From the NCBI RefSeq assembly GCF_002964975.1, contig NZ_PSZM01000034.1:1-64000 (forward strand): DNA of 64,000 bases, read 5' to 3'. Each line of letters begins with the position of its first letter. Position 1 is the first letter of the stretch. This DNA comes from Apibacter adventoris (lineage in GTDB: Bacteria; Bacteroidota; Bacteroidia; Flavobacteriales; Weeksellaceae). Of the stretch, positions 4,007 to 52,717 are shown piece after piece. Below the pieces are notes generated by a model. That model did no database searches. It was given only the letters and a program-made list of their open reading frames with translations, and was not told the DNA's origin. The position numbers were made by a program, and so were the translations under genes.

Positions 4007-4011
4007 AACTC

Positions 4012-5970: not shown

Positions 5971-6044
5971 AAAGCTAGGTTTTTGAGTTGTTTTTTATTA
6001 AATAACTAAATAATTAATCATTATTAACCTCATAATGAGATAAG

Positions 6045-6052: not shown

Positions 6053-6214
6053 GGGTTTATTTTAATATGATGGCAACTTTTTTTTAATTATTTTTTTCTG
6101 TATTGCTTTCTATGAAAGGATTCTGTTCGGTTTGTATAACAACATTCCTACCCATGTATTATGAATAAAGGGATTCTATATTTTTGTTGACAACCAAAAA
6201 AGCAATAAATAATT

Positions 6215-7966: not shown

Positions 7967-7996
7967 AGTAGACTTTAGTTAAGAACTTTTTACGAC

Positions 7997-8004
7997 CAAA
8001 AATA
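7997..8004 (-). promoter_or_regulatory. Probable -7 element for the VanW-type gene
   Basis: Minus-strand TATTTTTG (TAnnTTTG consensus), 31 bases upstream of the start codon at 7966, in the short divergent region shared with ychF. Confidence 0.5.
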
Positions 8005-8067
8005 CATAAAAAATATTATAATAAAATCTAAAAAAAAGAAGCTATGTGGGCAAGAATAAAATATTTT

Positions 8068-8075
8068 TATCTTTG
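8068..8075 (+). promoter_or_regulatory. Probable -7 element for ychF
   Basis: TATCTTTG, matching TAnnTTTG, with the ychF ATG 17 bases downstream of it. No TTG at the expected -33 distance. Confidence 0.5.
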
Positions 8076-8092
8076 CACAAATTTTTCAAAAT

Positions 8093-9184
8093 ATGAAATG
8101 TGGAATTGTGGGCTTACCCAATGTAGGAAAATCTACTTTATTTAACTGTTTATCCAATGCAAAGGCTCAGTCGGCCAATTATCCTTTCTGTACTATAGAA
8201 CCCAATGTGGGTACCGTATCAGTGCCAGATCTTCGATTAAATAAATTAGAAGAACTGGTAATTCCGGAAAGAGTGGTGCCTGCAGTGGTGGAAATTGTAG
8301 ATATAGCCGGATTGGTAAAAGGTGCCAGCAAAGGAGAAGGTTTGGGAAACCAGTTTTTGGCAAATATACGGGAAACGAATGCCATTATTCATGTTTTACG
8401 ATGTTTTCAGGATGATAATATTACTCATGTGGAAGGGAGTATAGATCCTGTGAGAGACAAAGAGATTATTGATATAGAGCTACAACTGAAAGACCTTGAG
8501 ACTATAGAGAAAAAACTTGAAAAATCTAAAAGAGCAGCAAAAGCCGGAAATAAAGAAGAGCAGTTAATAGTTTCCGTTTTAGAGAAACTACAGAAATTTA
8601 TAGAAGAAGGACGCAATGCCAGAGAATATGAAACGGATGAAATTACCGGTCCGGTTGTGGCAGACTTACAGTTACTTACTTTCAAACCTATTCTATATGT
8701 ATGTAATGTTGATGAAAAATCTGCGAAGAGCGGGAATGAGTTTGTAGAAAAAGTACGAGAAAAAGTAAAAAATGAAAAAGCTGAAATTATTGTATTGGCA
8801 GCCCAGATAGAAGCAGATATATCTGAATTGGAAACCTATGAAGAAAGACAGATCTTTTTAGAAGAATTAGGATTGGAAGAACCGGGCGTAAATCGTTTAA
8901 TTCGTCAGGCATATCATTTGTTAGATCTTCAAACTTATTTTACGGCAGGAGTAAAAGAAGTTAGAGCTTGGACCATACAAAAAGGATGGACGGCACCACA
9001 GGCAGCAGGGGTTATTCATACGGATTTTGAAAAAGGATTTATCAGAGCTGAAGTTATTGCGTATGAAGATTTTGTAAAATATGGTTCTGAAGCCAAGGTT
9101 AAGGAAGCAGGAAAACTATCGGTAGAAGGAAAAGAATATGTAGTAAAGGACGGAGATATTATGCATTTTCGTTTTAATGTATAG
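8093..9184 (+). CDS. ychF: Redox-regulated ATPase YchF (Obg family)
   Basis: A 363-aa P-loop NTPase of full family length. The P-loop G-L-P-N-V-G-K-S-T is at residues 7-15 and the G3 region D-I-A-G-L-V-K-G-A near 68. The G4 position reads C-N-V-D-E, i.e. NxxE instead of the GTPase NKxD, which is the hallmark that gives YchF its ATP preference. The central coiled-coil and a C-terminal TGS-like domain (F-E-K-G-F-I-R-A-E, D-G-D-I-M-H-F-R-F) are present. It binds ribosomes and is linked to stress responses in other bacteria. Single-gene unit with its own promoter motif. Confidence 0.97.
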   Translation: MKCGIVGLPNVGKSTLFNCLSNAKAQSANYPFCTIEPNVGTVSVPDLRLNKLEELVIPERVVPAVVEIVDIAGLVKGASKGEGLGNQFLANIRETNAIIHVLRCFQDDNITHVEGSIDPVRDKEIIDIELQLKDLETIEKKLEKSKRAAKAGNKEEQLIVSVLEKLQKFIEEGRNAREYETDEITGPVVADLQLLTFKPILYVCNVDEKSAKSGNEFVEKVREKVKNEKAEIIVLAAQIEADISELETYEERQIFLEELGLEEPGVNRLIRQAYHLLDLQTYFTAGVKEVRAWTIQKGWTAPQAAGVIHTDFEKGFIRAEVIAYEDFVKYGSEAKVKEAGKLSVEGKEYVVKDGDIMHFRFNV

Positions 9185-9432
9185 CTAATCTTTGGGTTTA
9201 GCTTCAATTTACTAAGATTAGTATTAGTATTGATTTTTTATTATTAAAAAAGAATAAGTATTTTATCTTATATTTGTATATTTGTAGCTATTTGTTAATT
9301 AAATAGCTATTTTTTTGTTTTTATTTTAATAATTATTATTTCAGTCTTTAAGAAATTGAAAATTATTCATTGTTTAATTATTGGTGAAATAAAAAAAAAA
9401 TTACATATTTGTACCCAATAATTAAATTGTTT

Positions 9433-10221
9433 ATGAAAAAGATCTTACTTACTATGTCAATGGCTTGCTTAACTATAGCAGGTTTTAATGCACAACTGAA
9501 TAAAGGAAAAATCCAAGCTTTATCCACTGCAGCAAAAGCTCTTACCGTTACAGATGCTGAGGTACAAGATGCTGCAGCTGCATCGGTAAAATGGATGGAT
9601 GAACATAATGCTACATGTTCAACCAAAGATAAAGATAAAAAGAAAAAGGCCTATGCAGATCGTTTAGAAAAAATATTCGGCCCTTATAAAAATTATGACG
9701 GATTAAAACTTAATTATAAGGTATATTATGTAATAGATGTTAATGCATTTGCAAGTCCGGATGGGAGTGTTAGAGTGTTTTCTTCTTTAATGGATATGAT
9801 GACTGATGATGAAATATTAGGAATTATAGGACATGAAATAGGACATGTGAAATTAGGGCATTCCAAAAAAGCATATAAACAGGCTCTTCTTACAGCTGCT
9901 GCTGCAAAATATGCCGGATCTACTACAGGTTCTGTAGCGGATTTGGTAAATTCCGATTTAGGTGATATTGCAACTAAACTTACCGGTGCGCAGTTTTCTC
10001 AAACCCAGGAATCAGCTGCAGATGATTATGCCTACACTTTTATGGTAAATAATGGAAAAGATCCTCATGCTCTGGCTACAGCTTTTGAAAAAATTGCAAA
10101 ATTGGAAAAAGAAGCCGGAGCAGATAAAAGTACCGGAACTAAGATATTTTCAAGCCATCCGGATAGTGAAAAACGAGTAAAAAGAGTAGAAAGTAAAATT
10201 AAAAAAGATAGTAAAAAATAA
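9433..10221 (+). CDS. Secreted/periplasmic M48-family metalloprotease
   Basis: 262 aa from the ATG at 9433; an upstream in-frame codon exists, but starting at M-K-K-I-L-L-T gives a clean signal peptide ending F-N-A-Q, and the promoter-like TATTTG lies just upstream. The zinc motif H-E-I-G-H is followed by V-K-L-G-H, and the third ligand lies in Q-E-S-A-A-D-D-Y, as in M48 (HtpX/Ste24/BepA-type) peptidases. There are no transmembrane helices beyond the signal, so it is a soluble periplasmic member like BepA/LoiP, probably in envelope protein quality control (inference). A strong terminator follows. Confidence 0.88.
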   Translation: MKKILLTMSMACLTIAGFNAQLNKGKIQALSTAAKALTVTDAEVQDAAAASVKWMDEHNATCSTKDKDKKKKAYADRLEKIFGPYKNYDGLKLNYKVYYVIDVNAFASPDGSVRVFSSLMDMMTDDEILGIIGHEIGHVKLGHSKKAYKQALLTAAAAKYAGSTTGSVADLVNSDLGDIATKLTGAQFSQTQESAADDYAYTFMVNNGKDPHALATAFEKIAKLEKEAGADKSTGTKIFSSHPDSEKRVKRVESKIKKDSKK

Positions 10222-10248
10222 ATAAATACTCTATAATAATAAAAAAAT

Positions 10249-10283
10249 AAAACTACCGGCTAGCCGGTAGTTTTATTTTTTTA
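10249..10283 (+). terminator. Rho-independent terminator after the M48 gene
   Basis: Perfect 12-bp inverted repeat AAAACTACCGGC / GCCGGTAGTTTT with a two-base centre, followed by a T-rich run. It separates the protease gene from the rplS promoter. Confidence 0.9.
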
Positions 10284-10288
10284 ATTTT

Positions 10289-10318
10289 TTGTAAAATTAA
10301 AATAATTGATTATTTTTG
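10289..10318 (+). promoter_or_regulatory. rplS promoter (TTG-N19-TAnnTTTG)
   Basis: TTG at 10289-10291, 19 bases, then TATTTTTG at 10311-10318: a full match to the Bacteroidota sigma-A-type promoter. It leaves a ~70-base 5' leader before the rplS ATG. Confidence 0.75.
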
Positions 10319-10388
10319 CATCCGAATTGATTAACCTCTGACGAAAGACGTGAATGTTACTCAAGGTAAATAAGTCATATAATAATAC

Positions 10389-10748
10389 ATGGAACCATTA
10401 ATTAAATATGTACAGGATAAGTACATTGCAAAAAAAGAATTTCCTGAATTTAATGCAGGGGATACTCTTACTGTTTATTACGAAATTAAAGAAGGTAATA
10501 AAACGAGAACCCAGTTTTTTAAAGGTGTAGTAATACAGGTAAAAGGAACAGGGGCTACAAAAACTTTTTCAATCAGAAAAATGAGTGGAGATGTAGGGGT
10601 AGAAAGAGTATTTCCTATAAATATGCCAGCTCTACAAAAAATAGAGGTAAACAGAAAAGGAAAAGTTCGTAGGTCTAGAATTTACTACTTTAGAGATTTA
10701 AGAGGTAAAAAAGCCAGAATTAAAGATGCAAGAGTAAAAGAAGCATAG
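10389..10748 (+). CDS. rplS: 50S ribosomal protein L19
   Basis: 119 aa, standard length for bL19. Family sequence is clear: F-N-A-G-D-T-L-T-V-Y-Y, F-K-G-V-V-I-Q, F-S-I-R-K-M-S, G-V-E-R-V-F-P and the basic tail R-R-S-R-I-Y-Y-F-R-D-L-R-G-K-K-A-R-I. It sits at the 30S-50S interface of the ribosome. Here it is a monocistronic gene, not in the rimM-trmD-rplS operon seen in many bacteria. Confidence 0.98.
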   Translation: MEPLIKYVQDKYIAKKEFPEFNAGDTLTVYYEIKEGNKTRTQFFKGVVIQVKGTGATKTFSIRKMSGDVGVERVFPINMPALQKIEVNRKGKVRRSRIYYFRDLRGKKARIKDARVKEA

Positions 10749-10773
10749 ATTTACTATTCTTTATAATATAACG

Positions 10774-10808
10774 AAAGGACTGAAAATTCATTTTCAGTCC
10801 TTTTTGTT
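10774..10808. terminator. Bidirectional terminator between rplS and the XRE regulator gene
   Basis: Perfect 13-bp stem AAAGGACTGAAAA / TTTTCAGTCCTTT with a TTCA loop, T run on the plus side. The stop codon of the convergent regulator gene (10794-10796) lies within the hairpin, so one element can serve both convergent genes. Confidence 0.9.
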
Positions 10809-11312
10809 TTTATAAACTTCAAAGCTGTGGTCTGTATATAAAATTATAATTTTTTGTATTTCTTTTTCGTTTGTATTTTCTTTATTTAATTTTTCATTAC
10901 TATGAGAATCTTCAATTTTGTTACTATTGTTAGCATTTTCATTAAAAGTAGACTTTATTATTTCCTCCGGGTTTTGTTCTTCAGATTTCCTATTGTCATC
11001 ATCTAAAGGAAAAAGGAGAGGAGAGGAGAGAGTTTCAATAGGCTCTAAATAAGAAGCATCTTCTGTTTTTATTGAGCTGTTATCTTCGTTATTTTGAGAT
11101 TTTAAAGGTTTCCCTTTGCCTAATATTAGCCAGTCAGAATTTATTTCAGGAAAACAACGTAAAGTACTTTCCAAAAAATCTAAGGAAGGTTTATTTCTTC
11201 CTGAAGTTATATGAGAAATTCCGGATCGTTGTACCTGAATTTTATCGGCAAATTCACTAGGTGTTAATCCTAAGATTTCTATTAATGCAATTATTCTTTT
11301 GTTAATTTCCAT
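10794..11312 (-). CDS. XRE-family transcriptional regulator
   Basis: A 172-aa protein with an N-terminal Cro/C1-type helix-turn-helix at residues ~8-62 (L-T-P-S-E-F-A-D-K-I-Q-V-Q-R-S-G-I-S-H, G-R-N-K-P-S-L-D-F-L-E). The tail is long, acidic and Asn/Glu-rich (~70-150). The last ~18 residues (I-I-I-L-Y-T-D-H-S-F-E-V-Y-K) are a conserved-looking hydrophobic end. Two TTACA-NN-TGTA(A/T) sites sit directly upstream of its start and two more upstream of the divergent M14-like gene, so it probably represses itself and that gene. Confidence 0.88.
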   Translation of the reverse strand: MEINKRIIALIEILGLTPSEFADKIQVQRSGISHITSGRNKPSLDFLESTLRCFPEINSDWLILGKGKPLKSQNNEDNSSIKTEDASYLEPIETLSSPLLFPLDDDNRKSEEQNPEEIIKSTFNENANNSNKIEDSHSNEKLNKENTNEKEIQKIIILYTDHSFEVYKNKKD

Positions 11313-11315
11313 ATT

Positions 11316-11346
11316 TTACATTTGTATATTTAGTTACATATGTAAC
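11316..11346. promoter_or_regulatory. Putative XRE autoregulatory operator pair
   Basis: Two copies of the dyad TTACA-NN-TGTAA: TTACATTTGTAT (11316-11327, one mismatch) and TTACATATGTAA (11334-11345) inside the perfect 14-bp palindrome GTTACATATGTAAC. The centres are 18 bp apart and the first copy ends 3 bases from the regulator's start codon. The same dyad recurs at 11543-11567. Confidence 0.65.
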
Positions 11347-11532
11347 ATACTAGTTTTTATGCAAAATTAATTAAAATATCTCAACAACTTACATAAAAAC
11401 ATTTAAATCTCACTTTAACACAATCTTTAAATAATTAAATATATTTTATTGGTAAACAATAATTTGAATTATATAAAATAAGCATATCTATTTTTTTCAG
11501 ACAAAACGGCATAGTTTTCATTATCAAAAACA

Positions 11533-11577
11533 TTTCAATTATTTACATTTGTAATTTACAAATGTAAATAATTGAAA
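11533..11577. promoter_or_regulatory. 45-bp perfect palindrome holding two regulator sites, overlapping the -33 element
   Basis: Every base pair from 11533/11577 inward to the single central base 11555 is complementary (22-bp arms). It contains TTACATTTGTAA (11543-11554) and TTACAAATGTAA (11556-11567), the same dyad as upstream of the XRE gene, centres 13 bp apart. Its right arm contains the TTG of the promoter at 11572, so a bound protein would block RNA polymerase. There is no T run, so a terminator is unlikely. Confidence 0.8.
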
Positions 11578-11601
11578 ACTCTCTATTTTTGAATATATTT
11601 G
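11572..11601 (+). promoter_or_regulatory. Promoter of the M14-like gene (TTG-N19-TAnnTTTG)
   Basis: TTG at 11572-11574 and TATATTTG at 11594-11601 with a 19-base spacer. It lies inside the longest possible reading frame (TTG at 11589), which shows that translation starts downstream at 11616. Confidence 0.75.
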
Positions 11602-11615
11602 TAAAAAAGTATCTT

Positions 11616-12794
11616 ATGTCCACAGAATTAAAAATCGTTGATCTAGAGCAAAATTTAGACGTTGAAGAAATTTTCAATAACAGATATGTCAATCCTAAAA
11701 AATTAAATGACTTCCTAGTAAAAAATTATAAAGAGAATCTAACCTTGTTGGGATATTCTGTTTGTAAAAAACCTATTTTTAAATTATCTATAGGGGTTGG
11801 TAAAAAGAATATTCTTCTGTGGACTCAAATGCATGGTAATGAAACTACAGGAACACTGAGTGTTTTAGATTTATTAAAATTTTTAAAAAACGAAAATAAA
11901 TTAGCAAAAGAGATTTTCGAAAAATTTACATTAGATATAGTTTTAATGCTAAATCCGGACGGATCAGAAATCTGGACGCGAAGGAATATTATGAATATAG
12001 ATGTAAATCGTGATTTTTTAGCGGAAGCTTCTCCTGAAATCCGAATTTTAAAAAATCTTGTAAAAGAGAAAATCTATGATTTAGCTTTTAATCTTCATGA
12101 TCAAAGAACTATCTATGGAGTAGGGACAACAAACCATTCAGCTACATTGTCGTTTTTGTCGCCTTCAGTTTCAGAAGATAGAGAAATTACAGAAATAAGA
12201 AAACAATCTATGGGAATAATAGCTTCTATATATAAAGAAATAACTAAAATATTACCTAATAAAATTGCCCGATATTCCGATGAATTTTATCCGCGTTCTG
12301 TTGGAGATAATTTTCAAAAGTTAGGAATTCCTACCCTTTTATTCGAAGGAGGACATTATCCTAATGATTATTACAGACAGAAAACAAGAAAATATTTTAC
12401 TTTGGCCTTAATTACAGCTTTACATTCTGCGCTTAAAGATAAATCTACTTGGAAAGATAATTATAAAGATTATTTAGAAATCCCCGAAAATTCAGTTTCA
12501 TTTTATGATATAATTTATAGAAATGTAGCATTGTCTGAAGATGTAAAAAATACGGTTGATATAGCTATTCAGTACTCAGAGTTCATATTTCCTGAAGAAG
12601 AGGATATTTCTTTTGTAGCCAAAATTGAAGAGATTGGAGATTTGTCTTTTTTATATGGTCATAAAGAAATTAATGCAGAAGGAAGAAGATTTTATTCTGA
12701 AAATAATAAGTATCCTAAAATAAATATGGAGGCAGATTTTCAATTAGATGAATGGGTGATAGTTAATGGGAATAAGTTGGAATCAATAGTATAA
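11616..12794 (+). CDS. M14-type zinc carboxypeptidase-like / succinylglutamate desuccinylase-like hydrolase
   Basis: 392 aa from ATG 11616, chosen because the promoter -7 motif ends at 11601. Zinc ligands are His73 and Glu76 (M-H-G-N-E) and His161 (N-L-H-D-Q); Glu244 (L-L-F-E-G-G-H-Y) fits the catalytic glutamate. N-P-D-G (~112) and the R-N-I-M-N-I-D-V-N-R-D-F stretch, which supplies substrate-binding Arg/Asn, are typical of M14. No signal peptide, so it is cytoplasmic. Its promoter is overlapped by the palindrome shared with the adjacent XRE regulator, so its expression is probably induced under a specific condition. Substrate (peptide or N-acyl amino acid) cannot be told from sequence. Confidence 0.85.
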   Translation: MSTELKIVDLEQNLDVEEIFNNRYVNPKKLNDFLVKNYKENLTLLGYSVCKKPIFKLSIGVGKKNILLWTQMHGNETTGTLSVLDLLKFLKNENKLAKEIFEKFTLDIVLMLNPDGSEIWTRRNIMNIDVNRDFLAEASPEIRILKNLVKEKIYDLAFNLHDQRTIYGVGTTNHSATLSFLSPSVSEDREITEIRKQSMGIIASIYKEITKILPNKIARYSDEFYPRSVGDNFQKLGIPTLLFEGGHYPNDYYRQKTRKYFTLALITALHSALKDKSTWKDNYKDYLEIPENSVSFYDIIYRNVALSEDVKNTVDIAIQYSEFIFPEEEDISFVAKIEEIGDLSFLYGHKEINAEGRRFYSENNKYPKINMEADFQLDEWVIVNGNKLESIV

Positions 12795-12842
12795 TAAAAT
12801 AATACTTATATTTGTAACTATATTTAGAATATTAATTATTAG

Positions 12843-14303
12843 ATGTTTTTTAATTCTTTTAACTACGCAATTTTTTTATTAATAGTATTTATTTTATATT
12901 GGTTTGTTTTCAATAAAAAATTAAAAATTCAGAATCTTTTTCTTTTAGTTTGTAGTTATTATTTTTATTCTTGTTGGGATCGTAGATTTCTTATTTTACT
13001 TATATTTTCTACTTTATTAGACTTTTTTTCAGGAATAATGATTGAAAGGCATAATAATAAAAGAAAAAGACGTTTTTGGTTATTGCTTAGTATTATCATA
13101 AATTTAGGTTTTTTAGGTTTTTTTAAATATTATAACTTTTTTATACAATCATTTGCTGAGTTATTATCTAATTTAGGTATAAAGCCTCATATTTGGACTC
13201 TTCAAATTATTTTACCGGTAGGAATTTCCTTTTATACTTTTCATGGACTTTCATATGTAATAGATATTTATAAAAAAAGAATTCCTGTAGAAAAAAATTT
13301 TGTGGATTATGCACTGTTTGTAAGTTTTTTTGCTTTATTGGTTGCGGGTCCTATAGAAAGAGCTACCCATTTACTTCCTCAGTTAAAGAAAAAGAGAAAT
13401 TTTAATTATTATCAAGCAGTAGATGGATTGCGCCAGATTTTATGGGGATTATTTAAAAAAATAGTAATTGCTGATAATTGTGCACATTATGTAAATATTA
13501 TTTTTGATTCTTCAGATACATTATCAGGAAGTGAACTTGTTACAGGGGCAATATTATTTGCTTTCCAAATTTATGGTGATTTTTCAGGTTATTCAGACAT
13601 TGCTTTAGGATCATCCAGGCTTTTAGGGATAAACTTGCTCAAAAATTTTAATTATCCTTATTTTTCCAGGGATGTAGCAGAATTTTGGAGACGTTGGCAT
13701 ATTTCTTTGTCTTCATGGTTTAAAGATTATTTGTACATTCCTTTGGGAGGAAGTCGTGGAGGTACTTGGATGAGAATTAGAAATACATTTATTATTTTTT
13801 TGGTTAGTGGTTTTTGGCATGGTGCTAATTGGACTTTTATATTTTGGGGAGGATTAAATGCATTGTTCATTATGCCTTCTATCATATTAAAAACAAATCG
13901 TCATAATTTAGATATTGTAGCACAAGGAAAAAAACTACCCTCTTTAAAAGAATTTACATCTATTTTATTGACTTTTATCATTATTACCTTTGCATGGATA
14001 TTTTTTAGATCAGAAAATTTACATCATGCTGTATCTTATATTTCGAAAATATTTAATGCAGATTTATTCACAGTTCCTTTTATTCAGGATAGGAGGAAAT
14101 TGTTTAGAATAATTGTGGTTTTTATATTAATATTGTTTTTCTTAATTATAGAATGGATAGGGAGAGAAAATAATTATGCTTTAGAAAAATTGGGTAATAA
14201 TTGGAATTTTATAATCAGATGGTTCTTTTATTCATTTATTATTTTCTTAATTTTTATGTATATGGAAATAAAAGGTTCACCATTTATTTATTTTCAATTT
14301 TAA
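12843..14303 (+). CDS. AlgI-like MBOAT O-acyltransferase
   Basis: A 486-aa polytopic membrane protein with about a dozen hydrophobic segments. MBOAT hallmarks are F-W-R-R-W-H-I-S-L-S-S-W-F-K-D-Y-L-Y-I-P-L-G-G and the catalytic His in S-G-F-W-H-G-A-N-W, near residues 281 and 325. These proteins carry acyl (usually acetyl) groups across the membrane for O-acylation of extracellular polysaccharide (AlgI, DltB, PatA). It is followed 12 bases later by an SGNH-type partner gene. No polysaccharide biosynthesis genes are nearby, so the acceptor glycan is unknown. Confidence 0.93.
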   Translation: MFFNSFNYAIFLLIVFILYWFVFNKKLKIQNLFLLVCSYYFYSCWDRRFLILLIFSTLLDFFSGIMIERHNNKRKRRFWLLLSIIINLGFLGFFKYYNFFIQSFAELLSNLGIKPHIWTLQIILPVGISFYTFHGLSYVIDIYKKRIPVEKNFVDYALFVSFFALLVAGPIERATHLLPQLKKKRNFNYYQAVDGLRQILWGLFKKIVIADNCAHYVNIIFDSSDTLSGSELVTGAILFAFQIYGDFSGYSDIALGSSRLLGINLLKNFNYPYFSRDVAEFWRRWHISLSSWFKDYLYIPLGGSRGGTWMRIRNTFIIFLVSGFWHGANWTFIFWGGLNALFIMPSIILKTNRHNLDIVAQGKKLPSLKEFTSILLTFIIITFAWIFFRSENLHHAVSYISKIFNADLFTVPFIQDRRKLFRIIVVFILILFFLIIEWIGRENNYALEKLGNNWNFIIRWFFYSFIIFLIFMYMEIKGSPFIYFQF

Positions 14304-41188: not shown

Positions 41189-42409
41189 TTACTTCGCTTG
41201 CTTATAATACTCCTGAAAAGCATCGAACTCACTTCTGACCTTATTTACTTCAACATAAATCTTTTCGTTCAGTATCTTAGCGTAAATCTGTGTTGTAGTG
41301 ATGTTTGTGTGTCCGAGCATTTTGGAAACACTCTCTATTGATACGCCTTTGGTCAGCATAATTGTCGAGAATGTATGTCGCCCTGTATGCGTTGTCAACC
41401 TTTTGTTTATGCCACACAGTGAAGCAATTTCCTTCAAATATTCGTTCATCTTTTGATTGGTGTGCATGGGGAGCAATTTATCAGTACCTAATCTTCTGTA
41501 TTTTCGGATAATGCTCAAAGGAATTTCCAATAATGGGATATTGGCTTCTACATCCGATTTTTGCCTGCTTAGACGTAACCACTTTTGCCCGAAACCATCT
41601 TCGTAAATATTATCGGTAGTCAGATTAACAACATCTATGTAGGCGATGCCCGTGAAGCACTGAAAAGCAAAAACATCTCGTACTTCTTCCAATCGTTAAC
41701 AATCAAATTTCTTAGATAGGAGTTTCTTAATTTCAGGCTCAATTAAAAATTGTTTATGCACAGGTTTATACGAAAGAGTCATATCATCAAAAGGATCGTG
41801 AGTAATATACCTATTCTTTAGAGCGTTGATTATAATTTGTTTTAGATAGCGTAAATGTTTTACTGTTGAGTTATGACCGCAATCGCAAACTGATTTCAGA
41901 TAGACCTCGTAATCGGTGATAAACTGAAAATCTACATCCCTTATTTGCAAATCATCTTTCTTGTATTTATGCAGTATAAAATCGGCAACACGTTTACGTG
42001 TAGCCAGATATTTAGATAGGGTGGTATCTCGGATTGTTTTACCGACAAGGCTTCGTTTTTGTTCTACTTTGATGTCATACAGAGAAAGAACTGTATTTTT
42101 CCGAATTTCTTTACCTAAATAGGTGTCACGAAGTTTGTCAGCGGTAACATAACCGTCTTTTTCAAGAATAGCTTTATAATGCTTGTCTAAGGCTATCTTT
42201 ATTTTATCTAAAGCATCATTGATTTGCTGAGCTTCTTTTGTTCGTCTGATTGCCCTGCCTGTTTGGCTCCACATTTCAGGCTTTACAAATTGCAGGGAAC
42301 TGAACTCTGCTTTGTCTCCACTGATAGAAATTCGGACACTAATAGAGGCTAATCCGTTGCTGTTTACTCTTTTTCTTGTCAAAAAGAGGATTCGATAGGT
42401 ACTGTTCAT
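41189..42409 (-). pseudogene. Tyrosine integrase interrupted by an in-frame TAA
   Basis: N-terminal arm-binding and core-binding domains (to K-K-F-D-C) end at TAA 41696-41698; in the same frame translation resumes R-L-E-E-V-R-D-V-F-A-F-Q-C-F-T-G. The catalytic half keeps Arg in the C-F-T-G-I-A-Y-I-D-V context, H-T-G-R-H-T-F (H-x-x-R), L-G-H-T-N and the nucleophile Tyr in T-Q-I-Y-A-K-I. A GAA-to-TAA change would explain it. The full protein would be 405 codons, typical of Bacteroidota ICE/IME integrases with a SAM5-type N-terminus. As it stands the element probably cannot excise by itself. Confidence 0.88.
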
Positions 42410-43532: not shown

Positions 43533-44669
43533 TTATTTTTTAGGAAAATCCGGTCTTTGCATTTTATATCTACTTGAAGAGAGGACTTCTAAAAAGGATT
43601 CTAAAGCTTCAATTTCGTCCTGGTTTAAATTTAGAGGAATTATAAGAGAGTCAATTACCGGATACATAGGATCTTTAAGTTTTTGTTCTTTAGTAGGATT
43701 ATTTATTAATAGAGTATTATTATATAAATTAATGATGCCTGTTAAATTATCCATAAAGCCATTGTGCATCCAGGGCCGAGTAAGTAGTAAATCTCTCAAA
43801 GACGGGGTTTTAAATTTACCAACATCCTTAGGATCTTTTGTGGTTTCATATAACCCTAAATCCTCAAATTCTCTTTTATAATAAGTAAGACCAATGTTGT
43901 GAAATTTTTCATCAGTAAAATATTTACCATAATGGCAGTTCATGCATCTTGCTTTAGTCCTGAATATATGCATACCATATATTTCTTTATCTGTAAGTGT
44001 AGAATAATTACCTTTTATAAACTTATCAAACCTGCCGGGCTGACTTTTTATAGTTCTTTCAAAAGCTGCTATGGCTTTGGTAATACGTTCATAAGTTATT
44101 TTTTCATTTCCGTAAGCATTTTTAAAAAGACTTTTATACCCTTTTATTTTAGAAAGTTTTTTTACCACTAGGTCTTTATTAAAGCTCATCTCATTATGAG
44201 CTTCCAAAGGACCCGCTATTTGTTCCTCCAGGCTAGAAGCTCTACCATCCCAAAACATTTTATCTTTGAAAGCAGAATTGTATAGAGAAGGTGCATTTCT
44301 TCTTCCCAATTGATGGTCGTGCCCTAAAGAAACACTACGGTGGTCTGTCCATCCTAATTCCGGATCATGGCAACTGCTACAAGAAATTTGATTGGAGGAA
44401 GAAAGTTTAGGATCAAAAAATAGCATTTTACCTAAAATAACTTCCGGTAGTTCCTGAGTTTCATAGAAAAGTGTGTCTATTTCAAGCGGTTCAAATTCTT
44501 TCCATGGAATACCTTTATCTATAAAAGGAGAAGGCCACTTTTCCAAAGGTTGTTTATAGCTTTCTATAATTTCTTTTATATCAACTGTATGACTTTTATA
44601 ATTATAAAAGCAGAAAAGGATAACTATTAATAAAAATATTTTTAAGAATATGCTCTTTAGGTTTTTCAT
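43533..44669 (-). CDS. Di-haem cytochrome c peroxidase (MauG/CcpA family)
   Basis: 378 aa with one N-terminal membrane/signal helix. Two haem sites: C-S-S-C-H (~98) and C-M-N-C-H (~242). Family segments are L-F-F-D-P-K-L-S-S-S-N-Q-I-S-C-S-S-C-H-D-P, R-N-A-P-S-L-Y-N, F-W-D-G-R-A-S-S-L-E-E-Q and F-K-T-P-S-L-R-D. It reduces peroxide or oxidises a substrate in the periplasm. It is the last gene of a five-gene operon behind a TonB receptor, DUF4876 lipoproteins and a DUF6850 barrel (13 bases from the last), so it may process the imported ligand. Confidence 0.93.
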   Translation of the reverse strand: MKNLKSIFLKIFLLIVILFCFYNYKSHTVDIKEIIESYKQPLEKWPSPFIDKGIPWKEFEPLEIDTLFYETQELPEVILGKMLFFDPKLSSSNQISCSSCHDPELGWTDHRSVSLGHDHQLGRRNAPSLYNSAFKDKMFWDGRASSLEEQIAGPLEAHNEMSFNKDLVVKKLSKIKGYKSLFKNAYGNEKITYERITKAIAAFERTIKSQPGRFDKFIKGNYSTLTDKEIYGMHIFRTKARCMNCHYGKYFTDEKFHNIGLTYYKREFEDLGLYETTKDPKDVGKFKTPSLRDLLLTRPWMHNGFMDNLTGIINLYNNTLLINNPTKEQKLKDPMYPVIDSLIIPLNLNQDEIEALESFLEVLSSSRYKMQRPDFPKK

Positions 44670-44682
44670 GTCTGTTTTACAT

Positions 44683-46209
44683 TTAAAAAACTAATCCTAA
44701 ACTTATTGATTGTGAATAATTAGGCTTTTGGTGATAGAATGTATATTGTAAGGATTGGTCTACAAACAAGTTTAGATTAGAAATTTTGAAATATACTTTT
44801 ACTTGTAAGTTTGTTTTGAAATAATTTGAAGATTTAAATTCAAAATCATCTTTGAGCTGTTTTTGAAAACTATCATGGATTCCTGTCATTTTTAATTTAT
44901 TTTCGGAACTTAAAGATTCTTTCCAGCTTACAGCGGATGAAATAAAAAAATGAGTTCCCGAAGTAAAAGATTTATTTAGTCCCAGGTTTATACCCCAAGA
45001 TATGTCGGAAAATTCTTGATAAGAATAGGGGTAAACATATTTTTCTTTTTCATTTATTAAATTAGTGAAGGGGCTGATAGAGTAGGAGCCGTTAACAATT
45101 TTTCTTGAATATAAAAAAGATAGATTTAGGTCGCTTTTTTTATGGGAATATTGTTGTTTTTTATCTATACAATCCATGTGCGAACCTAAATCTATGTAAT
45201 AAAATTCTGTACCGGTTCTTTCTTTATAAGTGCCGTTTATACTAATCCCTAAGGTATAATTAATACTTGGGTCAAATAATTTTATTAAGGAAATATAATA
45301 AAGATTTTCTTTAATCTTAGAAAGTGTTAGTTTACTATTGGTGTTTTCTTCTACTTTTTTATTGTTGAATCTTTCAATATTTGCAGAAAAGAAAAAATTC
45401 TTTTTTTCGGAATTAAAAAATTGAATTCCACCTCTGTAAGTATTACCACTAAAACTAGTATTAAAAACTTTTCCTGTAAAGAGATAACTATAGTTGCCCA
45501 GTCCTAACATCTGGTAAAGTACAGGTTTACCTACAAGACTGGCAAATTTAACATCATTGCTTTGAGTATAATTTTTAAATCCCATATTAGCCGAAATAGT
45601 ATATTGAGGTAAGATATTTCTACTGTACCCCAAATCAATATCTAAATCTGACACCAGATTCTTGGGTCTGGGATCTATATCTCTATATTCTTGTTGAGCT
45701 TTGTAACGTCCGAAAATACCTAGTATATTTTTTCCGGATTTATAAGAATAACCACCTTCAAAAAAATAAGTTTCGTTATTTAAATTTCCTCCAATGCTAT
45801 CTGCTGATATATAGGGATATATATTTTCTAGGTCGGAATTTTCATTTAAAACTACTTTTTTTATAACATTTTTCGAATAAAAGGCTTTTCCCCAAACTAT
45901 GTGTTTTTGGGGAGATAGTATTTGGTATGATTCTACTTCTACTTTTATGCCTTCTAAACCTTTTCCTTTATTAACCTCATAATATTTATTTGAATTTTGA
46001 ATATGATATTCGCTAAATATCTCTGAGAAAGAAAAATTTCTGTAATAAAACATATTGGCCGGATTTTTTTCTATTTGATATCTGTAAAAATTGCTCCGGA
46101 AGTCATATTTATCAGTCAAAGTAAGTTGTAAAGTATCTATAACTTGCCCAAAGCAAGATATACTTACCAATAATAAAATAACAAAATATGTTTTATTCCT
46201 ATATGTCAT
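44683..46209 (-). CDS. Outer-membrane beta-barrel protein (DUF6850-like)
   Basis: 508 aa with signal peptide (ends S-C-F-G-Q). The sequence alternates polar and aromatic strands throughout and ends S-I-S-L-G-L-V-F, with the terminal Phe typical of outer-membrane barrels. I recall a DUF6850 family associated with DUF4876 proteins; the assignment is by context and shape. Six bases from the upstream DUF4876 gene. Confidence 0.7.
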   Translation of the reverse strand: MTYRNKTYFVILLLVSISCFGQVIDTLQLTLTDKYDFRSNFYRYQIEKNPANMFYYRNFSFSEIFSEYHIQNSNKYYEVNKGKGLEGIKVEVESYQILSPQKHIVWGKAFYSKNVIKKVVLNENSDLENIYPYISADSIGGNLNNETYFFEGGYSYKSGKNILGIFGRYKAQQEYRDIDPRPKNLVSDLDIDLGYSRNILPQYTISANMGFKNYTQSNDVKFASLVGKPVLYQMLGLGNYSYLFTGKVFNTSFSGNTYRGGIQFFNSEKKNFFFSANIERFNNKKVEENTNSKLTLSKIKENLYYISLIKLFDPSINYTLGISINGTYKERTGTEFYYIDLGSHMDCIDKKQQYSHKKSDLNLSFLYSRKIVNGSYSISPFTNLINEKEKYVYPYSYQEFSDISWGINLGLNKSFTSGTHFFISSAVSWKESLSSENKLKMTGIHDSFQKQLKDDFEFKSSNYFKTNLQVKVYFKISNLNLFVDQSLQYTFYHQKPNYSQSISLGLVF

Positions 46210-46215
46210 ATTTGT

Positions 46216-47406
46216 TTACTTTTTTAATGATGGTTTTCCTGATTTAAAATCTTTTTTAGAATTATTGGTATCTTGTAATATTTTATAAGGTATTTGGGTA
46301 GTAACTATTCTGTTTACACTCTTTCCGTATCTGGATTCATCTCCTTCATGAAGGCTGCAAGTTGTCCATCCGCTATCTAAAGAAGTTGATGTTAAAATCC
46401 AATCTGGATCTTTACCATTACTTAAATTAACAGCATCTATAATCCAATTATTGGGAATAGCCATAGCATCTCCATCCATAAGAAAACCAAATTCATTATA
46501 TGTATAATGGTAACTATTTTCTGCAAGAAAAGTTTCTTTGGACATATTTTCCGGTAGACGAGCAATCACGTAGCTCCTAACTCCTTTTTTATCAATAGAT
46601 ACAGAATTAAACAATTCCGAAGTGTTAGGTACTTGTGGATTGTCTACACTTTCATCATCATAAGGACTATACATTTCAAAATTTGCAGAACTTAAATTGA
46701 TATAATTTTTATCTATTGCATTATGATTATTAGCACTTTCTGCTATTACTATGGAAGATCTTGGTGGAATAGGATAATCTTTCCCTTTACCAGGTAAAAT
46801 AATTATGCCTCCGGCCGCAAATTTTTGTTCCATAATATTAGGAGAATAGTCATTTTTATCATTAGTTGTAAATTCTGATTCAGCTAAAAGTAATCCGTCA
46901 GCATATACTACATAATCCGAATTGTTGTATAGCTTAAAGTATCGGTCGCCAAAGTATGGGATTCCTGTTAGCGAGTTTTTACTACCCGTATAATAAATTT
47001 CTTCAAATATTAAATCTCCTTTTTGGGTTATGGATTGATGTACAGAAAGTTCTATTATTTGATTTTCTCCTGTAATAGATATGGATTCTAATATGCCGGT
47101 TAGTTTAATTGGGGCTTTATCATTGTCAATAACTCCTTCAACGGATATTTTATAATTTCCGCTGATGAGATCGATATTTAAAATTGGAGATTTACTTTCT
47201 ACTTGGGTTTCTATTCCTGAATTTATTTCTTTAAATGAGACAATAAAATTTACAGGAGATGAAATATCTATTTCTTGAGGATAAGATAGTCTTAATTCTA
47301 CTTTTGTTTTGCTATTTGAAGAAATATCCATATCATCATCTGAAGAACAGGAAAAAAAAAGTAAAATAATTACTATATTAAATAGTATTTTGTTAATTAA
47401 TTTCAT
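46216..47406 (-). CDS. DUF4876-type lipoprotein, copy 2
   Basis: 396 aa; lipobox L-F-F-S-C followed by S-S-D-D-D. Shares with the upstream paralog the segments G-D-(F/L)-(V/I)-x-x-E-(V/I)-(F/Y)-(F/Y)-T-G, Y-(F)-K-(I/L)-Y-N-N-S, Y-A-D-G-L-L, L-P-G-K-G-K-D-Y-P and G-W-T-x-C-S-L. These look like a lamin-tail-like (LTD) beta domain with an N-terminal Ig-like part. Likely faces the cell surface or periplasm and partners the TonB receptor. Confidence 0.8.
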   Translation of the reverse strand: MKLINKILFNIVIILLFFSCSSDDDMDISSNSKTKVELRLSYPQEIDISSPVNFIVSFKEINSGIETQVESKSPILNIDLISGNYKISVEGVIDNDKAPIKLTGILESISITGENQIIELSVHQSITQKGDLIFEEIYYTGSKNSLTGIPYFGDRYFKLYNNSDYVVYADGLLLAESEFTTNDKNDYSPNIMEQKFAAGGIIILPGKGKDYPIPPRSSIVIAESANNHNAIDKNYINLSSANFEMYSPYDDESVDNPQVPNTSELFNSVSIDKKGVRSYVIARLPENMSKETFLAENSYHYTYNEFGFLMDGDAMAIPNNWIIDAVNLSNGKDPDWILTSTSLDSGWTTCSLHEGDESRYGKSVNRIVTTQIPYKILQDTNNSKKDFKSGKPSLKK

Positions 47407-47432
47407 AGATTTATTTATTTAATGTTATATTA

Positions 47433-48692
47433 TTATTCTAGAAAAAGTTTAGCTCTGGGAATAAAATCTTCAGTTGAATTATTTGTATCTTGTAAAATAT
47501 CTATTCCATTAGCATTTTTTTCTTTAAATTTTCTTTTTATACATGTATCAAATCTTGTAATATCTTTATCATTTAAAGAGCAATAGGTCCAACCTCTGTC
47601 TATAGAGGGAGAAATAACCAGCCAGTTATGTTTTCCCGGAGTACTTACATTTGCCGCATCTGCAATCCATTCATTAGGTATTTTATATACTGACCTTTTA
47701 AATATATTCCCTGCTTCATTTAAATAAGAATAATCATATTTGTATTGATTCAGATATTCATTTAGGGAAATGTTTTCTCCCAACCTGGCTATGGCATAGG
47801 TTTCTGCCCCTCTATTATGCAAATAAACTGTATTAAGTTTCATGGTGGTGAAAATAACTTTTGCATTGGGAACTTCCGGATTATCTACTTCTCCTAATTT
47901 TGGATTATCTGTATTAGGAAACTCAAAAAGATATTGAGTACCTGCTTTTCCAATAACAGCAGCAGGAGTGAGATTATAGGCATTAGGATTTGTAGTTTTA
48001 TGATTTATGGCATTGTCACAAACAACTATGGATTTTCCTGGTTCTACCGGATAGTCTTTTCCTTTTCCGGGTAGCATTAGTATGGCTGAAACAGGAAAGG
48101 AACTGCTAAAAATATTGGGGGTTACATCACGTTTAGTCCAGGGGTTAAATTCTGATAGGCAAATTAATAAACCATCAGCATATAAGGTTCGGTTACTGTT
48201 ATTATAGATTTTAAAATATTTTCCTGAGTCGTATTTTTTACCGGTAGGGTATATTGTTCCTGTAAAAAAAACTTCCTGAATAACAAAATCTCCATCTTTG
48301 TTGATATTTTTAAGATAAAGAGGTATAGTCAGGTTATTGTTTGTAGTGTTTATTTGGATGTTTTCTATTAGACCATAAACATTTAAAGTGTCATTTTCAA
48401 CTACAACATATCCTTCTATATTTATTTGATAATTTCCGGAAACAATCTTTTTAGTTAGGCTTTTTTCAGTTTCATTTTCAAATTTGTATTCAGTTCCCGA
48501 GTTTTTCTCTTTTAATAAGAGGGTAAAGTTTCCTTTAGCATCATCTTTTATACCTTCAGGATATAAAAGATGGGTTGTAAAATTGTTTTGTTCTGTTTCT
48601 GTATAACTGTCATCATTGGAACAGTTGTATAACAAGAAAAGCATGCTTAAGAATAAAGCAAATATTTCTTTTCCATATTTGAATTTTTTCAT
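47433..48692 (-). CDS. DUF4876-type lipoprotein, copy 1
   Basis: 419 aa; lipobox L-L-Y-N-C followed by S-N-D-D. Same segments as its paralog (Y-F-K-I-Y-N-N-S-N-R, L-P-G-K-G-K-D-Y-P-V-E-P-G-K-S-I-V-V, R-G-W-T-Y-C-S-L-N) but the two are diverged, so the duplication is old. Six bases from the TonB receptor gene, the usual spacing of a receptor-lipoprotein pair. Confidence 0.82.
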   Translation of the reverse strand: MKKFKYGKEIFALFLSMLFLLYNCSNDDSYTETEQNNFTTHLLYPEGIKDDAKGNFTLLLKEKNSGTEYKFENETEKSLTKKIVSGNYQINIEGYVVVENDTLNVYGLIENIQINTTNNNLTIPLYLKNINKDGDFVIQEVFFTGTIYPTGKKYDSGKYFKIYNNSNRTLYADGLLICLSEFNPWTKRDVTPNIFSSSFPVSAILMLPGKGKDYPVEPGKSIVVCDNAINHKTTNPNAYNLTPAAVIGKAGTQYLFEFPNTDNPKLGEVDNPEVPNAKVIFTTMKLNTVYLHNRGAETYAIARLGENISLNEYLNQYKYDYSYLNEAGNIFKRSVYKIPNEWIADAANVSTPGKHNWLVISPSIDRGWTYCSLNDKDITRFDTCIKRKFKEKNANGIDILQDTNNSTEDFIPRAKLFLE

Positions 48693-48698
48693 ATTTTA

Positions 48699-51464
48699 TT
48701 ATAGTTTAAAATTAATTTCCATTCCAAAATAAGGAGAATAGGAAGATCTTCTTTGTACAATTCCGTATATTTCATATTTTTTATTATAGTTATATAGTTT
48801 ATTAACAAACATGGAAACGGTTATTTTTTCATGATACATTTTTTTTGAAAATTTTAGGTTTATATTAAGTGAAAGAGGTACTCTGCGAGAATCTAAATTA
48901 TTGTTATCTCTGTATAACCATTTCAGATAGGTGTCATTTTTGTCAGCTTCCGTATAAGGATGTAAAACCTCATCATATCCCATATAATACAGTGGAGATC
49001 GATCTTTTTTCATGTATTCAGTTAAATTATACCATGAACATTGTACAGATGCTAAAAAGTTCATTTTTAATATAGGAATGTAAGTGTCTGCCATAAAACT
49101 AGTGGAAAAAGTTTCCAACTCATATCCGTCATCATCTTTGTATAGGCCTACGAAAGGAATTTTTTCATTATTCAATATAACATCTGAAGATTTATACATG
49201 GGAACACTATTACGGTAAATAGTGTTAAACCAAGCACCACTAAAGGTGAAACGTGTATTGATTATAGAAAATCTTTTAGAAGAATATTGGAATTCTACTC
49301 CTTTTTTATCAGTGGTACTTCCATTTTCTGTTTTCGTATAAGTAGCAAAATCATTTTTTATTTCATAAGATAGATTAGTAAGATCAGGAGGAGCAGTAAT
49401 ATTTATATGGTCAATATTATCAGTAATATATTTCTTATAAATAAAATGTTTATAATAAGTCATGGATCGGAAACCGGAAGTCATTTTTTCACGGAATATT
49501 GTTACTGATAAGTTGTTGTTATCATAACTAAAATCAAATCTTATTTCTTTTTTATTATTATTAGCTACCGTTAAGTCTTTGTTTTCTTTATTAATAATAT
49601 AAGTTTGAAAGTTTAATTTTCTATACTCCGGATTGTTATGAAAATAATTTAATTGTGTATAGTTTATGTAATGAAGATCTGGATATAATAACTCTAGAGT
49701 AGGCACTTTTTTGTGTTCTCCATATCCTAATGTTATATCCATAGTAAAGGCTTTATTATGAATAAACATTTGAGGCATAGACCATTGGAAATTAGCTCTG
49801 GGTTCCCAAAAAAAGCTTTTGGCTAGTTTATAAGAATGATCCATATTAGTCATTTTAAAAGATCGTAATCCTAAACTCAAAATAAAATGATTTTTATTAA
49901 TATTGAAGCCTATTTTATCTTCTGCATATAAGGATAGTTTAGACATAGACGGAATATCTTTATATCTTCTTGGGAAAGAACCCATATTTAGATTAGGGGG
50001 TTGTAAACGATTATAGATTTGACCTTTACCGTTATTTTTAGAATAGGTCCAATCACTTCCAATTAATATGCTATGTTTAAAACCTAAAGTTTTGGCATAC
50101 ATATTTGATATTAGTTTAAGAAATACATCTAAGGGTTTTCCTTCTACATATAGATTAGATGCATAGTTCTTATCTAGATAAATTCCGTCAAAGGCACCTT
50201 CGTCCATAGATATGGGTAGGGGAGCCACAGCTGGTAGCTGTATAAACTTTATTTGCTCAATTTTGTCAACTTCTTCTCTAATAGAGGTACTTAACTGAAT
50301 ATCTTTAATCCATTTTTTTTTCAATAAGAGTTCAAAATTATTAGATATTCCATATTTATAATAAGTGGATTTGTATCGATCTATTTTATCATAACCGGTA
50401 TCAGGATCAAATTTTTCGTCATCTATAGAGCCAGTAAAGTCTAAATTAAGATCCCATACTAGTTGAGAAGAAGTTAATGAGAATATTTTTTGGCTTCGGA
50501 GTGAGGCTGTATATCTTTTATAAGTATCATAGGTATTTCTAGGCTCTGATTTAGCATCAAGTACATCCATACTTGCATTTATGTTCCATTGATATTTAGG
50601 AATTTCAAATCCCTTCGCTATATAATATAGTTTACTATAACCATCAGCCTTAAATCTTCCTTCCCACTTATTTCCTCCTTTTTTTCTTGTTATATTCACA
50701 ACACCTGAGGTTAAATCTCCATATTCTACAGAAGGAATTCCACGTATAATTTCAACTTTTTCTATGTCATCTGTAGAAATCGTTCTCATATCGATTCCGA
50801 TAGAAGTAGTTTTTTTTCTTTGATTGGAAAATTTCTGTCCGTTTGTAATGGCTTGGTTCAAAGGATCGGGAGAATATTGAAGGTCAGCATTTGTATTGAT
50901 AGGAATGCCATCAATCATAAAAAGCGTACCCAAAGAATTTGTATTATATCCGGAAACAGATCCTGCTTGTCTGAGTTGAATAGGATTTACAGAAGTAAAT
51001 ACAGGATCCATTGCTAATCCTCCGGGCAATAATTCCAATACATCCGTAAAACTGGAAGGTTGCAAAAGTTCTAAAGCTTTTTTGTCTATAATTGATTTTG
51101 TAGTGATACCTTTTGACTCTTTTGCTGTTACGATAATAGTTTCTAATTCATTTTCTTTTGTTTTTAATTTTATTTCTTGAGTTAAATTTCCGTTTAGTTG
51201 AATCTCTGAGCTGTAGGGAGCATATCTGGAATGAGATATGAATAATGTATATTTACCTTTAATAATTTGAATGTCAGCTTTTCCTTTTTCATCGGTATAA
51301 AAGGTTATAGTTTTATTTTCTTTACCTTGGATAATAATTTTAGCATTATTGATCAAATTGTTTTCTTCATCTTTTATTATTAGTTTTAATTCTATTTTAA
51401 TTTCCTGACAGAAAATAAATCCAGGAAAAAAAATTAGTAAAAAAATATATTTCAAACAACTCAT
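48699..51464 (-). CDS. TonB-dependent outer-membrane receptor
   Basis: 921 aa with signal peptide (ends F-I-F-C-Q). Order: carboxypeptidase-regulatory-like domain (~22-110), plug (~120-255; S-S-F-T-D-V-L-E-L-L-P-G-G, I-E-K-V-E-I-I-R-G-I-P-S-V-E-Y-G-D-L-T-S-G), then a 22-strand-type barrel ending F-G-M-E-I-N-F-K-L. First gene of the five-gene operon. There is no SusD partner, so the ligand is more likely an ion chelate, haem or peptide than a glycan (inference). Confidence 0.93.
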   Translation of the reverse strand: MSCLKYIFLLIFFPGFIFCQEIKIELKLIIKDEENNLINNAKIIIQGKENKTITFYTDEKGKADIQIIKGKYTLFISHSRYAPYSSEIQLNGNLTQEIKLKTKENELETIIVTAKESKGITTKSIIDKKALELLQPSSFTDVLELLPGGLAMDPVFTSVNPIQLRQAGSVSGYNTNSLGTLFMIDGIPINTNADLQYSPDPLNQAITNGQKFSNQRKKTTSIGIDMRTISTDDIEKVEIIRGIPSVEYGDLTSGVVNITRKKGGNKWEGRFKADGYSKLYYIAKGFEIPKYQWNINASMDVLDAKSEPRNTYDTYKRYTASLRSQKIFSLTSSQLVWDLNLDFTGSIDDEKFDPDTGYDKIDRYKSTYYKYGISNNFELLLKKKWIKDIQLSTSIREEVDKIEQIKFIQLPAVAPLPISMDEGAFDGIYLDKNYASNLYVEGKPLDVFLKLISNMYAKTLGFKHSILIGSDWTYSKNNGKGQIYNRLQPPNLNMGSFPRRYKDIPSMSKLSLYAEDKIGFNINKNHFILSLGLRSFKMTNMDHSYKLAKSFFWEPRANFQWSMPQMFIHNKAFTMDITLGYGEHKKVPTLELLYPDLHYINYTQLNYFHNNPEYRKLNFQTYIINKENKDLTVANNNKKEIRFDFSYDNNNLSVTIFREKMTSGFRSMTYYKHFIYKKYITDNIDHINITAPPDLTNLSYEIKNDFATYTKTENGSTTDKKGVEFQYSSKRFSIINTRFTFSGAWFNTIYRNSVPMYKSSDVILNNEKIPFVGLYKDDDGYELETFSTSFMADTYIPILKMNFLASVQCSWYNLTEYMKKDRSPLYYMGYDEVLHPYTEADKNDTYLKWLYRDNNNLDSRRVPLSLNINLKFSKKMYHEKITVSMFVNKLYNYNKKYEIYGIVQRRSSYSPYFGMEINFKL

Positions 51465-51493
51465 TACTTTTAATTAGTCTAAATAAGTATTAG

Positions 51494-51501
51494 CAAATAT
51501 A
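51494..51501 (-). promoter_or_regulatory. Probable -7 element of the TonB/DUF4876/cytochrome peroxidase operon
   Basis: Minus-strand TATATTTG (TAnnTTTG), 29 bases before the receptor ATG. The remaining divergent region up to 51749 is AT-rich with nothing else recognised. Confidence 0.5.
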
Positions 51502-51784: not shown

Positions 51785-52717
51785 GTGGATAAAAAATATT
51801 TAGGTTCCTTTTTCATAATCCTAGCTTCTGTAATGCTTGGTATAGATGGAGGAATATTAATTGGTTTGTATTACAAAATATTTCATTTTTATAATGTTAA
51901 ATTTATTGTATTCGTAGCTCATCTTATACCTACCTTATTTCTGTCCGTTTTTTGTTTTAGAAAATATAAAATGTTAAAAATATTTTCTTGGAATGATTAT
52001 GTATATTTATTTTTGATTGCTTTATTCGGAGGAACTATAGGCACTTTATCAATAGTAAAAGCATTACAACTTAGTGGCTTTAGTAAAGTGAGTATAGTTA
52101 TATTATTGCAGAAATTGCAGCCTGTTTTTGCTATAGCTATGTCTATTATAATATTAAAAGAAAAGCCCAATCTCAAATTTTTTATAGTTGCTTTGGTGGC
52201 TTTGGTAGCCAGTTACCTATTAGCTTTTGGATTTCAAAGTCCCATGATGCTGGAAAGTAATAATATCCAAGCTATTTGTTATTCATTACTTGCTGCATTT
52301 TCTTATGGAAGTTCTTTGGTATTTGGTAAAAAAATTTTACATAAATACGATTTTTTTACTAGTACTTTTTATCGTTTTTTCTTTACAACAATCATTGTAG
52401 GGGTTTTAGTAATTTTATCCGGTAATTTAATTAGTGATATCAATTATTTTTTGGATAATCGATCTTTATTATTATTTGCTGTTTTTTGTTCGTTTTGGGG
52501 ATTGACAGAAGTTTTTGTTTATTATGTCGGTTTAAAAAATACCCCTGCATTATTAACCTCTATATTTGAACTGACTTATCCTTTTACGGTTGTTCTAATA
52601 GATACCTTTGTTAATAAGTATTATCTATCATCTTTACAGATTTTTGCAGTTGTTTTGCTCTTAGGATCTATTATTTATCTTAATCTGAATAATAGAAAAA
52701 TTATCCGGAATAAATAA
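51785..52717 (+). CDS. EamA/DMT-family membrane transporter
   Basis: 310 aa from GTG 51785 (a purine-rich AGGAG overlaps it at 51781). Ten hydrophobic helices in two EamA repeats; characteristic G-T-L-S-I-V-K-A-L and L-Q-K-L-Q-P-V-F-A-I near the end of repeat one and L-T-S-I-F-E-L-T-Y-P-F near the end of repeat two. Exporter of metabolites in this family; substrate unknown. Convergent with the AI-2E gene, 13 bases apart. Confidence 0.88.
   Translation: MDKKYLGSFFIILASVMLGIDGGILIGLYYKIFHFYNVKFIVFVAHLIPTLFLSVFCFRKYKMLKIFSWNDYVYLFLIALFGGTIGTLSIVKALQLSGFSKVSIVILLQKLQPVFAIAMSIIILKEKPNLKFFIVALVALVASYLLAFGFQSPMMLESNNIQAICYSLLAAFSYGSSLVFGKKILHKYDFFTSTFYRFFFTTIIVGVLVILSGNLISDINYFLDNRSLLLFAVFCSFWGLTEVFVYYVGLKNTPALLTSIFELTYPFTVVLIDTFVNKYYLSSLQIFAVVLLLGSIIYLNLNNRKIIRNK

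Follow-up and report, generated by a model that had tools for sequence, protein, structure and literature searches.

A widespread Bacteroidota outer-membrane cassette in Apibacter adventoris as a probable Fur-repressed iron-acquisition operon with an exchangeable last gene

A five-gene operon was identified on the minus strand of a 64,000-nucleotide stretch of Apibacter adventoris DNA (GCF_002964975.1, NZ_PSZM01000034.1, positions 1-64,000, forward strand; below, the window). As judged from its sequence, it is probably a Fur-repressed operon for iron acquisition at the outer membrane. Five complete open reading frames (ORFs) were found at 43533-51464, with successive gaps of 6, 26, 6 and 13 bases:

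48699-51464, minus strand: TonB-dependent receptor (TBDT), 921 amino acids; Pfam Plug and CarboxypepD_reg; first gene in about 100 loci
47433-48692, minus strand: DUF4876 lipoprotein a, 419 amino acids; Pfam PF16215, 160.8 bits
46216-47406, minus strand: DUF4876 lipoprotein b, 396 amino acids; Pfam PF16215, 141.7 bits
44683-46209, minus strand: DUF6850 outer-membrane beta-barrel (predicted), 508 amino acids; Pfam PF21012, 252 bits
43533-44669, minus strand: CCP_MauG di-haem protein, 378 amino acids; Pfam, 197 bits

Both DUF4876 copies (gathering cut-off 27.9 bits) and DUF6850 exceeded the Pfam gathering cut-offs, and the DUF6850 match spanned the whole profile (positions 1-464 of 464). ORF coordinates and Pfam assignments agree with a first-pass annotation, made from the sequence alone, which had read the same genes and spacing as one operon. 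Neither lipoprotein was assigned by Pfam to the SusD family, both being DUF4876, and the locus is thus not of the SusCD type. A scan for sigma-70 promoters and terminators gave no more sites than shuffled DNA, and was uninformative because the DNA is AT-rich and from the Bacteroidota.

A search for a Fur-type site near 51494, proposed in the first-pass annotation, resulted in a candidate operator at the operon promoter:

51466-51484, minus strand: Fur-box-like operator ATTTAGACTAATTAAAAGT; motif score 23.4 bits
51472-51486, minus strand: operator core TTATTTAGACTAATT; sole exact core match in the 64-kb window, 0.09 expected
51494-51501, minus strand: TATATTTG, a match to the -7 promoter box directly upstream of the operator, read from the sequence

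The Bacteroidota -7 promoter consensus is TAnnTTTG. The operator is placed between the TATATTTG box and the start codon of the receptor gene and overlaps the predicted transcription start, so that a bound repressor would block initiation there. The motif TTATTTAGAnTnA(A/T)T was common to the regions upstream of the receptor genes, 53/92 of which scored above 10 bits compared to 1/92 after shuffling; this count is raised by related genomes, but the sites nonetheless cover many genera. The motif precedes the operon in most of the Flavobacteriia examined, and the operon of a genus-mate retains the operator at 27.7 bits.

Genome-wide motif counts were obtained by pattern searches. With one mismatch allowed, 201 matches were found versus 178 in a reversed control, and as this was barely above the control, exact sites alone were used. 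Other A. adventoris genes with an exact core match in front of them are hemA, the cbb3-oxidase genes, an aconitase gene and three further TonB receptor genes. Those of Chryseobacterium indologenes are feoA/feoB, Fe-S_biosyn, PepSY_TM, ferredoxin-reductase-like and receptor genes (feoA, cbb3 and the reductase were named by eye, the others by Pfam). Some exact sites had no iron gene downstream. The identification of one C. indologenes gene behind an operator as HmuY was not supported by Pfam, which matched only a T9SS tail, and was not used.

Two Fur boxes have been published for Riemerella anatipestifer, also of the Weeksellaceae: ATTTAGAATTATCCTAAAT, with Fur binding by electrophoretic mobility shift assay (PMC10986502), and ATTTATTTTTATTCTAAAT (PMC5976166). 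Both match the motif, which was derived without them, with a probability of about 1e-5 for a random match, and the window operator is identical to each of them at 14 of 19 positions. The E. coli Fur box did not match the motif derived here. Two Fur-family proteins and one DtxR-family protein are encoded in the genome, which makes Fur the likely, not the proven, regulator at what appears to be a Fur-type operator. The ligand had earlier been regarded as not established, with iron, haem, manganese, copper and peptide among the possibilities. As far as regulation goes, the Fur-type operator in front of the operon decides between these classes, but it does not name the precise ligand.

Co-occurrence was studied in 395 Bacteroidota genomes, with DUF6850 counted above its cut-off. 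DUF4876 and DUF6850 were each found in 37 genomes, and a manual comparison of the two lists gave 35 in common, where about 3.5 would be expected if the families were independent. Across 100 neighbourhoods from four orders, the gene order TBDT-DUF4876 (1-3 copies)-DUF6850, often followed by the di-haem gene, was near constant. Junctions of 60 bp or less were observed in 96/100 cases for TBDT-DUF4876, 86/97 for DUF4876-DUF6850 and 55/58 for DUF6850-CCP, counted among related loci, and the grouping is therefore not due to chance. The first-pass annotation had staked its reading on co-occurrence of the families, and this was found, each way in 35 of 37 genomes and with both families next to the receptor in about 100 loci; the pattern for receptor, DUF4876 and DUF6850 also favours its proposal of an import-related set. 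Its description of the set as unusual was not borne out, the cassette, with its three-gene core, being widespread in Bacteroidota and known from iron-starvation transcriptomes.

Rearranged versions were seen in Alistipes and a few others, and Butyricimonas, Sanguibacteroides and Capnocytophaga have multi-copy DUF4876 arrangements of their own. In Myroides (loci L097, L107 and L114, about 200-13950), the whole receptor-DUF4876-DUF6850-di-haem operon is present twice in a row; about 300 bp separate the two copies, and each has an upstream region of its own. Among nine Apibacter genomes examined, DUF4876 was present only in the window genome and one other. The same five genes are found in this genus-mate, in the same order and with the same right-hand neighbours, and protein identities were 78% (di-haem protein), 66% (receptor), 65% (DUF4876 a), 67% (DUF4876 b) and 51% (DUF6850). 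Purifying selection acts on every gene of the operon, with a dN/dS of 0.10-0.23 for each against the genus-mate at a dS near saturation.

The last gene of the cassette was found to be exchangeable. The di-haem gene was present in 46/51 assessable loci of mostly aerobic lineages (Flavobacteriia, Sphingobacteriia, Chitinophagia and the like) and in 0/22 Bacteroidales loci, and cannot be regarded as a fixed part of the machine, as had been assumed earlier. Because the split tracks both lineage and oxygen use, oxygen as its cause is inferred. In five loci without the di-haem gene (L067, L140, L149, L156 and L158), an M16 peptidase gene follows the last operon gene within 30 bp or overlaps it; in other such loci a small lipoprotein, PepSY and ABC genes follow. 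The genes around the Bacteroidales cassettes (PepSY, ABC, DUF4857) match the BT_3625-3629 set of Bacteroides thetaiotaomicron. In this species, BT_3633 (receptor), BT_3632 and BT_3631 (DUF4876) and BT_3630 increased about 98-128-fold in low iron (PMC10434189). Porphyromonas gingivalis PG1019-1022 increased 21-215-fold in low iron (PMC10434189), and a DUF4876 gene of the same species was upregulated when haemin was scarce (PMC10470040).

In the proposed mechanism, Fur would leave the operator upon iron starvation and the operon would be transcribed. The DUF4876 lipoproteins on the cell surface would pass a ligand carrying iron on to the receptor for import with TonB energy, while the DUF6850 barrel beside the receptor could act as exporter, importer or scaffold. 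In oxygen-using lineages, a periplasmic MauG-type enzyme would process by oxidation either the ligand brought in or something coupled to it; in Bacteroidales an M16 peptidase or PepSY/ABC genes might take its place. Iron is well supported as the stimulus, and as the cargo it is strongly inferred. Several observations weigh against an iron-import operon under Fur control. Upstream regions of Chitinophaga and of most Bacteroidales are without the operator motif, and the DtxR-type regulator is encoded in the genome as well. Since aconitase, hemA and cbb3 genes share the motif, Fur control would denote the stimulus and not the substrate, and regulon membership alone does not mean iron import. A c-type haem enzyme within an iron-starvation operon furthermore costs iron.

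The di-haem protein contains the haem motifs CSSCH (97-101) and CMNCH (242-246). Its N-terminus is a signal or anchor with no clear lipobox, and from its sequence the protein is probably periplasmic. In MauG, the axial tyrosine is Tyr294, the bridging tryptophan Trp93 and the distal residues Gln103, Pro107 and Glu113. The corresponding Trp140, Gln150/Pro154/Glu160 and Tyr316 were conserved at 98-100% in 59 operon relatives, with Tyr316 being Tyr in 59/59. Tyr316 aligns with MauG Tyr294 and with the axial Met of the peroxidase 2c1u, and the Gln150-Pro154-Glu160 spacing is that of MauG. The MauG/MbnH-type residue set is thus present in full; all of it except the Tyr is also common to CcpA enzymes, where Met is the second axial ligand of the electron-transfer haem. 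As Tyr316 occupies that position, the earlier label of peroxidase does not apply in the sense of a classical CcpA type. Assignment as a MauG or MbnH equivalog was likewise rejected, because the NCBIfam scores were far under the curated cut-offs (TTQ_mauG, 218.7 versus 443.85 bits; MbnH-family model, 199.7 versus 362.85) and no partner substrate gene is present in the operon. With its axial Tyr and these scores, the protein resembles MauG in its haem ligands without being MauG or MbnH by the curated cut-offs.

The lipobox cysteine of DUF4876 a (Cys24) is invariant and is followed by the acidic stretch CSNDDS; at least two Asp/Glu follow the cysteine in 77/105 DUF4876 relatives. Such an acidic stretch is typical of surface-exported Bacteroidota lipoproteins. 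The DUF4876 fold is that of PDB 4q1z (BT_1938), the sole clear structural match of the model; similarity to the LTD domain was weak, below the cut-off, and was rejected. Copies a and b are only 38% identical, compared to 65-67% for each with its ortholog in the genus-mate, and the duplication must therefore be older than the split of the two Apibacter species, as had been proposed. In a tree of 63 DUF4876 proteins the two copies were not sisters and both had long branches, copy a grouping with flavobacterial proteins in a clade (support 99/99) to which copy b does not belong.

The receptor consists of an N-terminal carboxypeptidase-regulatory-like domain, a Plug and a barrel. A profile search against the PDB gave no ligand clue, the matches being confined to the N-terminal domain and the plug, with siderophore-receptor plugs matched weakly. 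DUF6850 is predicted to be an 18-strand outer-membrane barrel: 18 long strands were counted on the AlphaFold2 model (mean pLDDT 91), which also has N-terminal helices, and a C-terminal Phe is present in 85/95 relatives. No paper on DUF6850 was found in the open-access literature.

It is possible, although doubtful, that the di-haem protein is a periplasmic peroxidase clearing H2O2 during iron uptake in oxygen-using bacteria and leaves the ligand untouched. Such a role would fit the lineage split described above, the best PDB sequence matches, which are di-haem peroxidases, and the fact that no other CCP_MauG protein is encoded in the genome, whereas the replacement of the CcpA axial Met by an invariant Tyr, as in MauG, speaks against it, the peroxidase activity of MauG being poor. 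Rather unlikely is that the tyrosine-ligated enzyme performs a periplasmic iron-releasing step, in which the chelate would be broken with oxidising equivalents derived from H2O2 or O2 and for which anaerobic importers would use a peptidase or a PepSY reductase instead. An MbnH/MbnP-like modification, in which the enzyme would oxidise a partner protein (DUF4876, TBDT or DUF6850) at a Trp or Tyr to create a metal-binding site, is improbable. The MauG-type Tyr316, the invariant Trp140, the profile matches to TTQ_mauG and the MbnH-family model and the tight linkage to the partner genes are consistent with it, but both matches are far under the equivalog cut-offs, and no Trp, Tyr, His, Met or Cys of DUF4876, DUF6850 or the receptor was conserved exclusively alongside the di-haem gene. 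W342 of DUF4876 was also seen in 39/49 proteins without this gene. As no partner residue tracks the enzyme, a protein target of the MbnP kind is disfavoured, and the roles left are ligand processing and peroxide defence.

For DUF6850, there is some chance, though clearly below even, that the barrel is a lipoprotein exporter with a Slam-like role, surfacing DUF4876, and not a second nutrient pore. TbpB-type lipoproteins of Proteobacteria have a dedicated exporter, and the near-constant adjacency and co-occurrence of DUF4876 and DUF6850, as well as the predicted barrel with its N-terminal helices, are in line with such a function. However, a profile search against the PDB returned no solved relative of DUF6850, and fold searches with the model resulted in generic barrels of similar Z (porins, CymA, FhaC, BamA), which neither name nor exclude a family, Slam exporters included. 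A cargo in the form of an iron-bearing peptide or protein, as for FusA/FusC, in place of a siderophore or haem, is distinctly unlikely. M16 is the family of FusC, and the M16 genes adjoining the five Bacteroidales-type loci point in this direction; on the other hand, M16 peptidases are general, and no peptidase is encoded in the window operon or in the flavobacterial versions.

Every family of the operon is already catalogued, and published data cover how relatives respond to iron. BT_3625-BT_3633 (PMC10434189) resembles the operon in a TonB receptor followed by two DUF4876 genes and in strong induction by iron depletion, and related Bacteroidales loci combine DUF6850 with PepSY, ABC and DUF4857 neighbours; it differs in containing PepSY, ABC and DUF4857 genes and no di-haem gene, and BT_3630 is labelled 'fimbrillin'. 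PG1019-PG1022 and BT_1938-1939 share a DUF4876 lipoprotein with a TonB receptor and induction by low iron and low haemin, but have one DUF4876 gene, other flanking genes and no reported di-haem enzyme. The XusABC xenosiderophore system and BtuBG of B. thetaiotaomicron also combine surface lipoproteins with a TonB receptor, and Xus is iron-regulated, yet XusB (DUF4374) and BtuG belong to other lipoprotein families and DUF6850 is missing. HmuYRSTUV is an iron-regulated haem system with a TonB receptor and a surface lipoprotein, whereas the window operon is without HmuY, CobN-like or other hmu genes. MauG and MbnH share two c-type haems, the bridging Trp, the equally spaced distal Gln-Pro-Glu and the axial Tyr with the di-haem protein, but the window operon lacks mau or mbn partner genes. 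In open-access papers, no description was found of a conserved cassette with an exchangeable last gene or of a tyrosine-ligated enzyme in an iron operon. No function has been assigned to DUF4876 or DUF6850, yet in gut and oral Bacteroidota few loci respond to iron as strongly as those with DUF4876. Now that both families are tied to a single conserved cassette with a Fur-type operator and a last gene that can be exchanged, direct tests can address which ligand is involved and what the di-haem protein does, and might uncover a new way of extracting iron at the outer membrane.

An EamA transporter gene at 51785-52717 is oriented divergently to the operon; the two genomes of the genus that carry it are those with the operon, and it may belong to the same accessory block. 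Just downstream of the operon 3' end, at 41189-42409 on the minus strand, a tyrosine recombinase is split over two adjacent ORFs (catalytic part, 41189-41692; arm-binding and SAM-like parts, 41696-42409) and is probably broken. The segment 58000-61700 has 42-51% G+C in surroundings of 27% G+C and looks like a recent foreign insertion. Its plus-strand genes encode RibD_C, an alpha/beta hydrolase, a hexapeptide-repeat protein and a carboxymuconolactone decarboxylase-cupin protein, and a search for defence systems made in connection with this segment gave no matches. The sole Rfam match in the window was the L19-Flavobacteria ribosomal protein leader at 10332-10359.

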